NCBI GenBank assembly: GCA_963855995.1
Contig: OY979716.1
Coordinates: 85,647,042 to 85,711,041, forward strand
Source of the DNA: Muricea muricata
Lineage: Eukaryota > Cnidaria > Anthozoa > Malacalcyonacea > Plexauridae
DNA: 64,000 nucleotides
Direction: 5' to 3'
Shown here: piece after piece, positions 20,021 to 45,564 of the stretch
Layout: each line of letters opens with the position of its first letter
Position numbering within the stretch: position 1 is the stretch's first letter
Notes under the pieces: model-generated
What the model was told of the DNA's origin: nothing
Database searches by the model: none
Seen by the model: only the letters and a program-made list of their open reading frames with translations
Program-made: the position numbers and the translations under genes

Positions 20021-20347
20021 TATGGTGGCCCATTGTTATCATAGTGATTTTAGCAGAAAATGCCGGTTAATAAATGTTAAAAAAATGAAAATAAAAAAAT
20101 AAATACAACTTTAAGATAAAAATGAATAAAAATTCTTTTAAGAAAAAAATAAATACGAACCAAATTTAAAACAAATAAAAAAATGTAAAGTAAAAATATT
20201 TAAAAACATAAAATAAAAAACGTTCCAAAAAAGTAGTAACAATAAATTTGATTTTCATTTTCAAACTGAAAATGAAATGTTTTAAGTAGCCCAGCGTTAT
20301 CATAGACCATCATGCACATGGTGTGCGATGCGGTCAGGAAACTAAGG
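20021..20347 (+). repeat. Left TIR of IS3EU-like element 1
   Basis: 327 bp, very A-rich internally (runs of aaaataaa). It matches the reverse complement of 24374-24671 except for about 30 extra bases near 20120-20160. Confidence 0.9.
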
Positions 20348-20499
20348 CTTACATGAAGCATCCCCTCCCTGTGTTAAAAGCACATGGTATTAGACACTGT
20401 CACATTGACTCACTGTAGTTTAGTTGTGACGCTGTTTTAATTTTTTCACGGTTGAAGAACCTTTCCAGAGTTAAATAGCATAATTAAGTCAGCTTTAAA

Positions 20500-22073
20500 A
20501 TGCCTCCAAAGAGAAGACAAGTGACCTGGAACGACTTGAATGCTAAAGTAAGCGCCAAACGAGCAAGAACAGACGGAATGAATCGAGGTAAATTGTCGGC
20601 TTCGCCGCAATTACAAGAAATCGTGGTACAAAAGCTGTCGTCTGAGCCAGATAATAAACAGACATATCGACCAGTTCAACCGAGAGAGTTTGTGCCATTT
20701 GAGTATGAGGAACTCACATTGGCTAACCTTAAAAAAGCGTGTGGCCATCATTTCAACCTTCCAGCATCAGCATGTGATGTATTAGTGTCGAACAAAGGGC
20801 CATCATGCACTAATATTTCGCAAATACCCCATCGAAAAGATAAGGCAAGTATCTTAGTGTAGGCTTTTAAATGTTAGCATGAATATATGATAGTATAAAA
20901 CGAGTAGATTAATTTAATGTGCCATTCAGTGAGCAACTAAGGGCATATTGGTTGATGGTTAGCATCATGTAGATGGTAGTAATTTGATATATGATACCAA
21001 TCAACGAGAAATTGCAGACAGTATAAAAAAACAATTGTCTAATCAAACATAGCCGGCTTTCATACAACTGGCCTCAGGCATTTTTAGTGCACAGTATTTA
21101 ATTCTAGTATTTATTCACCTTTTTTACTGGGTATATCTTGTAAGATTTGTGCTTGGCACACAGGATGTTGAGAGGGAGTTGTCAGGTTACTTCTCAGAAA
21201 GTGAAGCAACTGGTTCTTCTCAAAGAAAGAAAGAACAGAGTTCACCAGAACCAGCTGAAGTAGAAACACAGTTTCCAGAATCTGTATCAATTGAGCAACT
21301 CCTGATGGCTGGGAAACTTGTGAAGCCACAGCAAAAAGACAGAGTAACCCTTGACCTTGGAGTCATTTGATGTAAAAAATCGAGCATGGCAACATGAAAC
21401 AAAATTGGAGCTGTTGCTTGAAAGGGAGAAGTTTTCATCAGGTGCCTTCAGGGATGCATTCAAGGGAATTGCAGAAGTTGATGGCAAGCAAAAAACATAT
21501 GTCGTAAAAATGTACAATGAAAAAGCCCTGCAGACGATTGAACAAACACTGGCAACTGCTGTAGAGGTCCATACTCGCAAGCAAGTGCAAATGCATGCTG
21601 TCGCTAGGCACATAACCAAAGGGTTTGCTTTGAAAGTGCCCCGTGAGTTTGGTGAATGTTTCATGTATAACAAAGTGTGTTATTCCTCCCTCAATGGCAA
21701 ACCTGTAACTGTGGAAGATTTTGTACCTGGAAAGTTTGCAAAGTATGTGAACAACAATGGGAAATGTGTTAACCCACCTGAAAGCAGCAGCAGTCAAACC
21801 AAAGAAATTTATGCTAAAGCCCAGTGCCTAGTCCATTACTCTTATTCAGCCATGCATCAGAAGATGATGCTGACAGATATTCAAGGGTCAAAATATAATC
21901 TATATGACCCAGAAATTTCAACCCAGAATTTAATGGATGATGATGAACTGTATTTTTGTTGTGGAAATCTATCCACAACTGGTATGGAAAATTTCCTGAG
22001 TGAACATGATTGCAACAAGTACTGCCAAATGCTAAAACTTCAGCAGGACCAAAATGAAGAACAAGAAAGCTGA
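20500..22073 (+). CDS. Alpha-kinase (eEF2K/MHCK/TRPM7-type) cargo gene
   Basis: Atypical Ser/Thr kinase. Exon 1 (20500-20844, 115 codons, starting MPPKRRQVTWNDL) ends at a GC-type donor AAG|GCAAGT. Exon 2 starts after cacacag at 21164. The N-terminus is basic and nuclear-localisation-like. The alpha-kinase domain spans about 21420-22050: FSSGAFRDAFKG (glycine-rich loop), YVVKMY (ATP-binding Lys), VEDFVPGKFAKYV, LTDIQGSKYNLYDPEI (metal/catalytic Asp, DPEI), a GNLSTTGMENF stretch and HDCNKYC, the C-terminal zinc-binding signature of alpha-kinases. One extra base near 21345-21352 (a CCC run) shifts frame before the domain; it may be a mutation or an error. Predicted product about 417 residues. 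The start lies 153 bp inside the left TIR, so transcription probably begins in the TIR. Substrate unknown. Confidence 0.8.
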
Positions 22074-42900: not shown

Positions 42901-44882
42901 ATGAAGAACGTTTTCGTTTTGGCATGATTGACTTATGGGATGTTCTGTTCTGTCCCTGTGAAGAGTGTGATCCCCTATTTTCGACATGTCCTACACCCCC
43001 AAACAATGACGGAAGAAGGGTTTGAACTGTTGGAATGCGGGTATCGTTAGCTCGTCCGTTAGGCTCATTGTTCGTATGTGAATTGGTTTCACACGATGGT
43101 TGACTCAATGCGTCTGCATTTGTTGATACGGTTGAATCCAGTTAATATGTAAAGAAATTTACAATGTTCAATACATACTGAGAAATGCTAGTCAGATGAA
43201 GCCCAGGACAAGGGCTACTACTCTCACCATGCAAGTTCCAAAGACAAAAAACTGTCATCTTGGAATATGACGGTTGTTCTCTTTGGCGCATGCGCTAAAT
43301 ACACAAGAGCAAAACTGAAAACTAGGGACACATGATTGGTTAAAAAGCAAACATTTTGTTTTTTACATCAAAGTTGAAATTAATCAAAATTAAACTTTTG
43401 TAAGCTCCTACAAAAACCTTCATATGAAAATTATATTTTAATTTAAAAAAATACATCTATTATTTGCAAAACAGCCAAAATGTTTTTTTTTAATTTTTGA
43501 AAGTTAACTTTTCGTGGGTGTGAACATTTTTTAAAAAACAATGTCATGTTGTTTTTGCTTGTTTGTCTGTCAGCTTGTAGCCAATCAGAGCTTTCACTTG
43601 TCTGACAGATCCGATCTTGTTAGGTAAATCTTAATTTCCAACCTGGCAACTGTTCTGAAGAGTGAACATCGACTTAGCAAGAACTGACCAAGCGATTTAT
43701 TGGAAAATCATAGCTCATTTGGGGGCAAGACTAGCCTGCTATTTTTTTCAATTTTGTCCCAGCAAATAATGTGTTTAAAGCAGTGTTTTTACAGTCTATT
43801 AATGAAATATATATTTTAACTTGGATAACTGTTGACTACAGTGTGTTACAGTACAGCATTATTAAATATTTACTACCATCATAAAGACACAAGTTCATAT
43901 CTGTAAGCTGTATGAGTATACTGCTTGTATCAATGGTTGGTTTTGTCATATTGTTAACAATTTAATATATTTTCTTGTCCTTTGTACAGTACCAACCTGT
44001 GTGCTTATGAGTTGTAAATGTTCAAATTACATTTGAATACATGTCTCTTGTTCGAAATATTATTTCAGTTTATTGCATTGATTTGACAGAAAATTTTGTT
44101 GTTATCATTGACAATATAATTCAAATTTAAGTATATAATGCTAAAGAATATTGATATGATTAAATGACTAACCTTTAAATTTGATAATTCAGTGCTGTAT
44201 ACTAGAAGTACACTTGGTGGCAATCAAGCAGAGTGCATAATGTAGAATTTGCTAATTTTTTTTTATTTTTCTAAAAATTACTGTCTGGACAGAAATACAA
44301 TGTCATCATGGTAGTGTGTGTAATCCAGCTGGTGTTAATAGTATTTGTGTGGAAGAACTGTAATCCAACTGGTGGCACTGGAAACCAATTGAAAGACTTT
44401 CCTATTAGCTATATTATTTGTGTGGAAGAACTATTTTCTATAGTTCTACTCTTCTTTCATTTCTATATAGGAGTTTGAAATAGGTTGTAATTTTTAAATG
44501 CATGCTTTTATTATTAAATGCATACTTTTATTATTAAATGCAGGGACGAAACTAGAGCGCTAATTTGGGGGGGGGTGCATATTCATATATTCGTGTTCTG
44601 CCCGACGGATTTCTTTTGAAATTGAACCTAATAACAACTGATTTCAAAAGAAATTCGTCGGGCAGAACACGAATATATGAATATTCACCCCCACAATTAA
44701 CGCTCTAGTTTCGTTTTCATTTAGCAGTGGCGAGGGGTTTTGTATATCTAGTTTACCAGTGAGATGAATAAATAAACGTGTTAAAAATTTAATTTTACCT
44801 GTTCGTTGTCCAAAAAACGAGTAACAGCGGTAGCAATCGCTCTCCCAAGAGCTACAGAGTCAATACGATTATTGCTCGCCAT
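36987..44882 (-). CDS. HECT-type E3 ubiquitin ligase with UIM, transposon cargo gene
   Basis: Ubiquitin ligase carried by IS3EU-like element 2. Exon 1 is 44882-44799 ([20 protein letters not shown]; donor CAG|GTAAAA). An exon ending at 42728 encodes a basic, Ser-rich region ([10 protein letters not shown]); its acceptor is unclear. Exons 3-10 are 40754-40524, 40426-40370, 40262-40204, 39941-39798, 38833-38353, 38272-38083, 37548-37342 and 37270-36987. They are GT-AG, phase-compatible and sum to 1653 nt, exactly 551 codons. Exon 6 has a ubiquitin-interacting motif ([14 protein letters not shown]). Exon 7 is the HECT N-lobe ([35 protein letters not shown]). The C-lobe keeps the catalytic Cys in [15 protein letters not shown] and ends HGFGNA. 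The first codon lies about 80 bp inside the right TIR. Substrate unknown; the gene appears intact. Confidence 0.85.
38868..39148. repeat. (TA)n microsatellite with (TATGTG)n core, flanked by an inverted repeat
   Basis: About 270 bp of TA dinucleotides with a central tatgtg run at 39042-39078. The flanks are inverted: aaaactatctcgta on the left (38883-38896) and acgagatagttttgg on the right (39146-39161). It lies in the HECT gene intron between exons 6 and 7. Long reading frames through it are artefacts. Confidence 0.95.
41109..42532. mobile_element. 1424-bp non-autonomous element with CAACCTCG-type ends
   Basis: The left tip CAACTTTGTTCCCGGGGTC and the inverted right tip CAACCTCGTTCTCAGGGCC are TIRs of about 75 bp, both alignable to the 74-bp TIRs of the giant element (CAACCTCG, then a CAGGGTCTT block, then ggtcacatg). 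Flanks ctctgcata and ctctatatc share 6 of 9 bases, a decayed 9-bp TSD. It sits in a HECT gene intron. The interior has no transposase. Confidence 0.72.
44541..44720. mobile_element. Fold-back MITE, ~175 bp
   Basis: The left arm from cgaaactagagcg through cgtgttctgcccgacg to aaaagaaat (with tcatatattcg) is the near-perfect reverse complement of the right arm ending cgctctagtttcg, with a loop of about 25 bp. Located in the first HECT intron. No clean TSD was assigned. Confidence 0.7.
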
Positions 44883-44961
44883 TTTTGAAAGCAAGATGGC
44901 GGATGCCCAAGCCAAGCGCGCGGGAAAATTTGCAATTACGCCTGTGCGCAGGCTATTTATA

Positions 44962-45564
44962 AGTCCGACGCGCATACCATGATGCGCATACAATAAAATA
45001 CTTATATGAAATAATGCATGTCTTATATGAAATAATGCATGTCTTATATGAAATAATATATACATTATATGAAATAATGCATGTCTTATATGAAATAATG
45101 CATGTCTTATATGAAATAATACATGCATTATATGAAATAATGCATGTCTTATATGAAATAATACATACATTATATGTAATATTTTATGCATTATGTGAAA
45201 CAATACATGCCTTATATGAAATAATATATACATTATATGAAATAATATATTTATTATATAAAATAATGCACGACTTGTATGAAATAAAGTATGTATTGTA
45301 TGAAATAATTTGTGCATTATATAAAATAATGTTTGTATTATATAGCACGAAGTCGGGATTATGTTAAACGTTGCATAGTTATTTTTTTGTATTGTATAAC
45401 TGGTTTCGTGCTTTGCGTGAATCTTTTCATTGTATTTTAATCGAATTGTTTCATTTTGTGTTGAAATGTTTATTTTCTACTAAATAATGCAATTAAAACA
45501 CTTAAAAATGCCAAATAACATAGAAAAACAAATTAAATAATTTTTTTACAAATGGCGCCTCATA
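44962..45564 (-). repeat. Right TIR of IS3EU-like element 2
   Basis: 603 bp inverted copy of 33858-34523, with fewer 21-bp units; ends GGCGCCTCATA before the TSD acacaa. Confidence 0.9.

Follow-up and report, generated by a model that had tools for sequence, protein, structure and literature searches.

IS3EU-like transposons of the anthozoan Muricea muricata pair one transposase lineage with an alpha-kinase gene and another with a HECT ubiquitin-ligase gene

A 64,000-nucleotide stretch of the Muricea muricata genome (contig OY979716.1 of assembly GCA_963855995.1, positions 85,647,042 to 85,711,041), hereafter the window, holds two IS3EU-like DNA transposons, element A (20021-24671) and element B (33858-45564), in which a transposase gene is accompanied by a gene for a second enzyme, an alpha-kinase in A and a HECT ubiquitin ligase in B. 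Across the host genome this pairing recurs, in convergent orientation, and goes with the lineage of the transposase; terminal inverted repeats (TIRs) and 6-bp target-site duplications (TSDs) bound both genes in several independent insertions. We regard it as probable that A and B belong to two separate cut-and-paste lineages of IS3EU type, each with a transposase and a lineage-specific enzyme as its core genes. From many animal DNA transposons only a transposase is known.

Two elements with a common plan

Each element contains two convergent genes that start near opposite TIRs, and both copies in the window are damaged, A by a frameshift in the kinase gene and B by a stop codon in the transposase gene. 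A sequence-only reading of the window had described TATG ends, long TIRs, exact 6-bp TSDs (ctaatg and acacaa) and two inward-facing genes within the TIRs, all of which we confirm; its identification of an alpha-kinase in A, a HECT enzyme in B and integrase-core transposases in both agrees with Pfam hidden Markov model searches. The features of element A are as follows.

20015..20020, no strand: TSD ctaatg, left flank (sequence reading)
20021..20347, plus strand: left TIR, terminus TATGGTGGCCC
20500..22073, plus strand: alpha-kinase gene; first exon starts at 20500, kinase-domain frame 21348-22070
22303..24277, minus strand: transposase gene; coding sequence in about six exons, joined by eye; PF24764 rva_4, 2.7e-14
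24374..24671, minus strand: right TIR (inverted-repeat comparison)
24672..24677, no strand: TSD ctaatg, right flank (sequence reading)

The TIRs of element A (20020-20347 and 24374-24672) are 89% identical over 328 alignment columns, and its termini read TATGGTGGCCC..GGGCCACCATA, that is, TATGG..CCATA. The frame at 21348-22070 matches the alpha-kinase family PF02816 at 2.3e-32, and alignment with TRPM7 (1ia9) shows the kinase lysine and the DIQG/DLQG, DP and zinc-binding HxCNxxC motifs, in which the residues presumably have their usual alpha-kinase roles. Compared with its relative P0124, the gene is frameshifted near 21353, and its splice signals, judged by eye, are partly irregular. Its N-terminal part was the only one of six pieces searched to return no Pfam match; in P0178, another relative of this kinase, a single protein contains the kinase domain together with the first exon. 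The element lies at the 3' end of a long open frame (19481-20041) that has no Pfam match above the cut-off.

Element B is larger, with the following features.

33852..33857, no strand: TSD acacaa, left flank (sequence reading)
33858..34425, plus strand: left TIR, terminus TATGAGGCGCC; contains tandem repeats with a unit of about 21 bp; more matching sequence to 34523
34582..35745, plus strand: transposase gene; helix-turn-helix (HTH) N-terminal part 34582-34962, rva_4 core 34966-35742
36987..44882, minus strand: HECT ubiquitin-ligase gene, about ten coding pieces (joints by eye); PF00632, 1.1e-14
41109..42532, no strand: putative nested element of about 1.4 kb among the HECT pieces, with an inverted repeat of 70 bp (74%) at its borders
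44998..45564, minus strand: right TIR; more matching sequence from 44962
45565..45570, no strand: TSD acacaa, right flank (sequence reading)

The TIRs of element B (33858-34425 and 44998-45564) share 97% identity over 568 positions, consist mostly of the tandem repeats of about 21 bp, and end in TATGAGGCGCC..GGCGCCTCATA. Its transposase matches PF24764 rva_4 (3.1e-64) and rve (7e-8), with HTH_7 in the N-terminal part (5.7e-8), and is interrupted by an in-frame TAA at 34963-34965. The spliced HECT gene keeps the active-site cysteine of the C-lobe and aligns with the HECT domains of Rsp5 and TOM1. Of the earlier label UIM-HECT, the HECT part is borne out by PF00632, while the UIM is read by eye only, in the frame 39755-39970 on the minus strand. 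The first exon of this gene ends in phase 0 and the frame of the next piece, again by eye, does not fit, so that an exon may be missed or misdrawn there. The stretch 41109-42532 is probably a nested insert. The interior of B also includes an AT-rich palindrome (38882-39159) and a second palindrome (44546-44714).

Recurrent pairing across the host genome

Profile and protein searches covered the 453-Mb host genome and scored only the best candidates, so that the counts are lower bounds: at least 142 matches to the Pfam alpha-kinase family, at least 139 to HECT and at least 129 to the A-type query P0021, together with the best 150 of 1177 rva_4 candidates. With an identity to P0021 of 40% or more as the definition of an A-type transposase, and with exons merged, there were 81 A-type and 21 intermediate genes, none of which overlaps the 150 rva_4 matches. 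With Pfam matches only and a limit of 6 kb, a kinase lies near 51 of the 81 A-type genes, 50 of them convergent, and a HECT match near 27 of the 150 rva_4 matches, 26 of them convergent. Three more queries enlarged the HECT set to 394 distinct matches, among them host genes and multiple matches to one gene, and the limit was then set at 8 kb. Kinases now stand convergent to 52 A-type transposases and divergent to one; HECT matches are convergent to 57 of the best 150 rva_4 transposases, on the same strand at one and divergent at two, and convergent to six of the 21 intermediates. No kinase was found within this distance of any rva_4 or intermediate transposase, so that the non-A-type genes combined have a convergent HECT in 63 of 171 cases and a kinase in 0 of 171. 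Random shifts gave mean convergent counts of 0.45 (A-type and kinase), 0.94 (rva_4 and HECT) and 0.15 (intermediate and HECT), with maxima of 3, 5 and 3 in 300 shifts. The source genome thus holds many kinase and HECT pairs in the same convergent slot, several with 6-bp TSDs, which supports the common plan described in the sequence-only reading. Its suggestion that this transposon group repeatedly acquires signalling enzymes was not borne out: a convergent kinase at 52 of 81 A-type transposases against no kinase within 8 kb of the 171 others indicates that the partner follows the transposase lineage and is not loose cargo.

Boundaries were examined at 20 of 29 transposase-HECT loci, 9.9 kb each, and in five of these TIRs and TSDs enclose both genes, the TSDs being exact in four and having one mismatch in L024. 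These and a second copy of the B family are:

L009, 678-7845: HECT element, TSD CGGAGG
L010, 601-7761: HECT element, TSD ATTATC
L018, 2301-9275: HECT element, TSD CATTAA
L028, 2709-9733: HECT element, TSD CGACCG
L024, 395-7364: HECT element, TSD with one mismatch
C1:50569024-50575546: second B-family copy, TSD CCTTTG

The terminus of L009, TATGAGGCGCC, is that of element B, and in L018 both genes are uninterrupted (transposase 497 amino acids, HECT 684 amino acids). On the kinase side, L029 is a copy of the A family that is 98% identical to element A over its full length and has both genes, with TSD CTATAG if one disregards a TATG repeat of 4 bp on the left; L030/L031 is a further A-family copy that contains an insertion and has TSD CTCTTG, and L030 holds both genes. 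L033 and L034, related kinase elements of 3.8 kb, have the same 21-bp terminus; their TSDs are TATCTC and GATCTG, and their genes for a transposase of 400 and a kinase of 419 amino acids are uninterrupted. In the pairs L010/L018 and L033/L034 the same element thus occupies different sites with different TSDs. Directly outside the TIRs of L009 lies a second inverted repeat (112-636 and 8024-8530, 89%), as if this HECT element had inserted into another palindromic element.

The HECT genes bear signs of constraint. The active-site cysteine is kept in all 18 readable C-termini, the frame stopping short at the other two of the 20 loci, and the ratio of nonsynonymous to synonymous divergence (omega, by Nei-Gojobori) is 0.22 between L010 and L018 (11 synonymous and 9 nonsynonymous differences) and 0.29 between L016 and L025 (8 and 9). 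Nonsynonymous divergence between L016 and L018, L018 and L020, and L016 and L020 amounts to 0.27, 0.43 and 0.44 in HECT and to 0.22, 0.32 and 0.33 in the transposase, synonymous divergence being saturated in both; over these three pairs, then, the two genes rank alike in divergence. A midpoint-rooted tree of 35 transposases has its root split between 20 HECT-partnered and 15 A-type sequences, with labels of 1.0 on the HECT side and 0.81 on the A side that rerooting may displace. Since the two sets come from different searches, this separation arises partly by construction, and the kinase partner was directly seen for three of the 15 A-type rows (element A of the window, L033 and L034), the other 12 being database proteins without context.

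In protein databases the A transposase has 379 relatives, of which the named ones among the best 120 are mainly from cnidarians, with some from molluscs and Ciona. The kinase has 150, the closest among the 120 listed being P0124 (91% identical, 21 cluster members); another, P0238, is named in the database as a TRPM6-like channel. For the HECT protein, three relatives passed among the 8000 candidates with most words in common, to which scoring was confined; the best of the three is P0001, which has CUE and HECT domains and 42 cluster members. Relatives of transposase and kinase fell on equally long source sequences in three cases against 0.003 expected, a weak sign given the length of the sequences (64 and 53 source sequences of at least 10 kb, from the best 120 of 379 and 120 of 150 relatives). 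Searches of viral contigs with P0004, the B transposase, A1 and A2, and of prokaryote genome contigs with A1 and the B transposase, found no relatives. The idea that the kinase and the HECT protein have an N-terminal domain in common was not supported (hhalign probability 0.3%).

Other repeats and genes were met in the same searches. Eight HECT matches, each in an open frame of 175 amino acids (C1:28391311, C1:27242579, C4:10702376, C1:7628959, C1:24655692, C1:54418422, C2:37295969 and C1:121514163), are not paired with any of the 150 scored rva_4 transposases and perhaps represent another HECT-bearing repeat. Alpha-kinase frames of 443 amino acids form a tandem array with a spacing of about 11.5 kb (C1:49705215-49751688 and C1:50080664-50104193). 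Elsewhere in the window are remnants with DDE_Tnp_1_7 (578-1207, plus strand, 1.5e-38) and DUF4371 (9602-10567, minus strand, 2.4e-19), matches below the cut-off to RVT_1 (60231-60725, minus strand, 3.7e-6) and Integrase_H2C2 (32167-32649, plus strand, 0.0024), two long open frames in which no Pfam match passes the cut-off (15710-17089, plus strand; 26090-27664, minus strand), and an inverted pair of 86% identity outside elements A and B (24821-24967 and 46202-46352).

The second enzyme and competing explanations

Chance proximity of transposases to host multigene families of kinases and HECT enzymes is very improbable as an explanation. Some of the matches, for example the top-scoring C3:19331434 and C2:3291095, are probably ordinary host genes, and many enzyme matches have no scored transposase nearby; convergent pairs nevertheless far exceed those in the shifted controls, and wherever TIRs and TSDs bound both genes, as in the copies that recur at several sites with different TSDs, this explanation is already contradicted. 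Opportunistic capture, in which the group would repeatedly take up host signalling genes and the kinase and HECT would be two such events, seems to us unlikely, though it has precedents: fungal IS3EU elements have gained TET/JBP genes (PMC12730594) and Styx further genes (PMC10853768). It sits poorly with the absence of kinases within 8 kb of the 171 non-A-type transposases beside 52 convergent ones at 81 A-type genes, with the constancy of the convergent slot, and with the parallel divergence of HECT and transposase.

Several observations count against two lineages with fixed partners. No partner was detected for 90 of the 150 rva_4, 15 of the 21 intermediate and 28 of the 81 A-type transposases, some of which may stand alone or have a different gene beside them. 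HECT matches lie within 8 kb of two A-type transposases, one convergent and one on the same strand, and a limit of 12 kb brings in kinases at four rva_4 transposases out of 150; each of these kinases shares the strand of its transposase, at a distance of 8.1-10.8 kb. The lineages themselves were split beforehand by similarity, at 40% identity to P0021. At the HECT loci, L016, L017, L021, L022 and L025 have enclosing inverted repeats for which no TSD was found, and at 10 of 20 neither TIR nor TSD was found within 9.9 kb. Copies have also lost genes: L032, whose TSD has one mismatch, underwent an internal deletion that removed most of the kinase domain and kept most of the transposase, and in the second B-family copy a match to window 40672-41047 is fused to the 5' transposase match, which runs up to about 35252, with neither the HECT domain nor the 3' part of the transposase at the junction (the middle 3 kb of the copy lie outside this reading). 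Omega, moreover, is 1.03 for the kinases of L033 and L034 (1 synonymous and 4 nonsynonymous differences) and 1.78 for those of L029 and L030, and 0.84, 0.77 and 0.51 for the transposases of L017-L018, L033-L034 and L012-L021; these values between close copies rest on few changes and are uninformative or high.

For two lineages with their own core enzymes, we tentatively propose that the transposase would cut at the TIRs and join the element to staggered target sites, giving the 6-bp TSD, and that the second enzyme would act in trans, phosphorylating or ubiquitinating either host proteins of silencing or repair or else the transposase complex itself, and so allow expression of the element and completion of transposition. 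Two targets stand about equally. The enzyme may serve in counter-defence, by removing or disabling the proteins with which the host silences transposons; as a precedent in the same superfamily, the TET/JBP dioxygenases of fungal transposons, those of IS3EU included, are said to likely aid escape from methylation silencing (PMC12730594), and Ginger1 transposases have OTU or Ulp1 protease domains (PMC2836005). Almost as plausibly, it could act on the transposase or the DNA complex, for example by releasing a stable strand-transfer complex or limiting transposase dose. That each enzyme goes with a single lineage of transposases would fit co-adaptation of the two, and ClpX, which remodels the Mu transpososome, offers an analogy; the ubiquitin-binding modules (the CUE of P0001, and a CUE-like region and UIM recognized by eye) equally suit host targets. 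A more speculative extension is that the HECT elements form a distinct lineage that needs its own ubiquitin ligase, with its ubiquitin-binding modules, either to transpose or to escape silencing, and that kinase, HECT and fungal TET/JBP are alternative answers, by protein or DNA modification, to one problem, each beside related transposases.

The HECT lineage with its conserved ubiquitin ligase and the sister alpha-kinase plan point to enzymes kept for the element's own use, which would make them testable handles on how hosts restrain transposons. Such elements may also account for part of the cnidarian HECT and alpha-kinase gene models that are otherwise counted as host genes.

Class assignment and known systems

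The termini of A, B and the further elements read TATG..CATA and so have the TA..TA ends of IS3EU, which, with the 6-bp TSDs and integrase-like transposases, supports the IS3EU-type plan of the earlier reading. The transposases are of the IS3/integrase-like DDE kind, with rva_4 in both lineages and rve in B. An alpha-kinase gene lies opposite the transposase in element A, in L029, L030, L033 and L034 and at the 52 A-type genes, and B has HECT in its place. Judged by sequence, then, the name IS3EU would rest on ends, TSD and core domain, and for A on the alpha-kinase plan as well. Two other classes were considered and do not fit: Ginger1, with its 4-bp CCGG/CCGT TSDs and TGTNR ends against 6-bp TSDs and TATG ends here, and IS481EU, with TSDs of about 4, 15 or 25 bp.

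The kinase plan is already known from fungi, and the HECT partner is apparently new. No report of a HECT partner in an IS3EU-type transposon was found in the literature searched, a body outside which subscription journals and Repbase entries lie; among the papers listed, one combines IS3EU with an alpha-kinase (PMC12730594) and none combines IS3EU with HECT. That paper describes IS3EU elements of rust and truffle fungi with transposase and alpha-kinase genes in opposite orientations; they share the 6-bp TSD with element A, and the rust ends TAYGG..CCRTA correspond to TATGG..CCATA in A. The fungal elements described differ in having a TET/JBP gene between transposase and kinase; the host here is an animal, and the word HECT is absent from the paper. 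The IS3EU/GingerRoot superfamily likewise has TA..TA ends, a 6-bp TSD and an IS3/IS481-like DDE transposase without an HHCC domain (PMC10045372); the words kinase, HECT and ubiquitin are absent from that paper.

Styx of Zymoseptoria is likewise related to IS3EU and has several genes beyond the transposase, its modelled ancestor being a two-protein IS3EU element, but these extra genes differ, with GATA, CCHC and DUF3577 domains (PMC10853768). Ginger1 resembles the present elements as an integrase-like DDE transposon with Hydra among its hosts and with domains of the ubiquitin/SUMO pathway, and differs from them in that the OTU/Ulp1 proteases are fused to the transposase, the TSD is 4 bp of CCGG type and the ends are TGTNR; with these domains it is an earlier case of integrase-like transposons drawing on the ubiquitin/SUMO pathway (PMC2836005).

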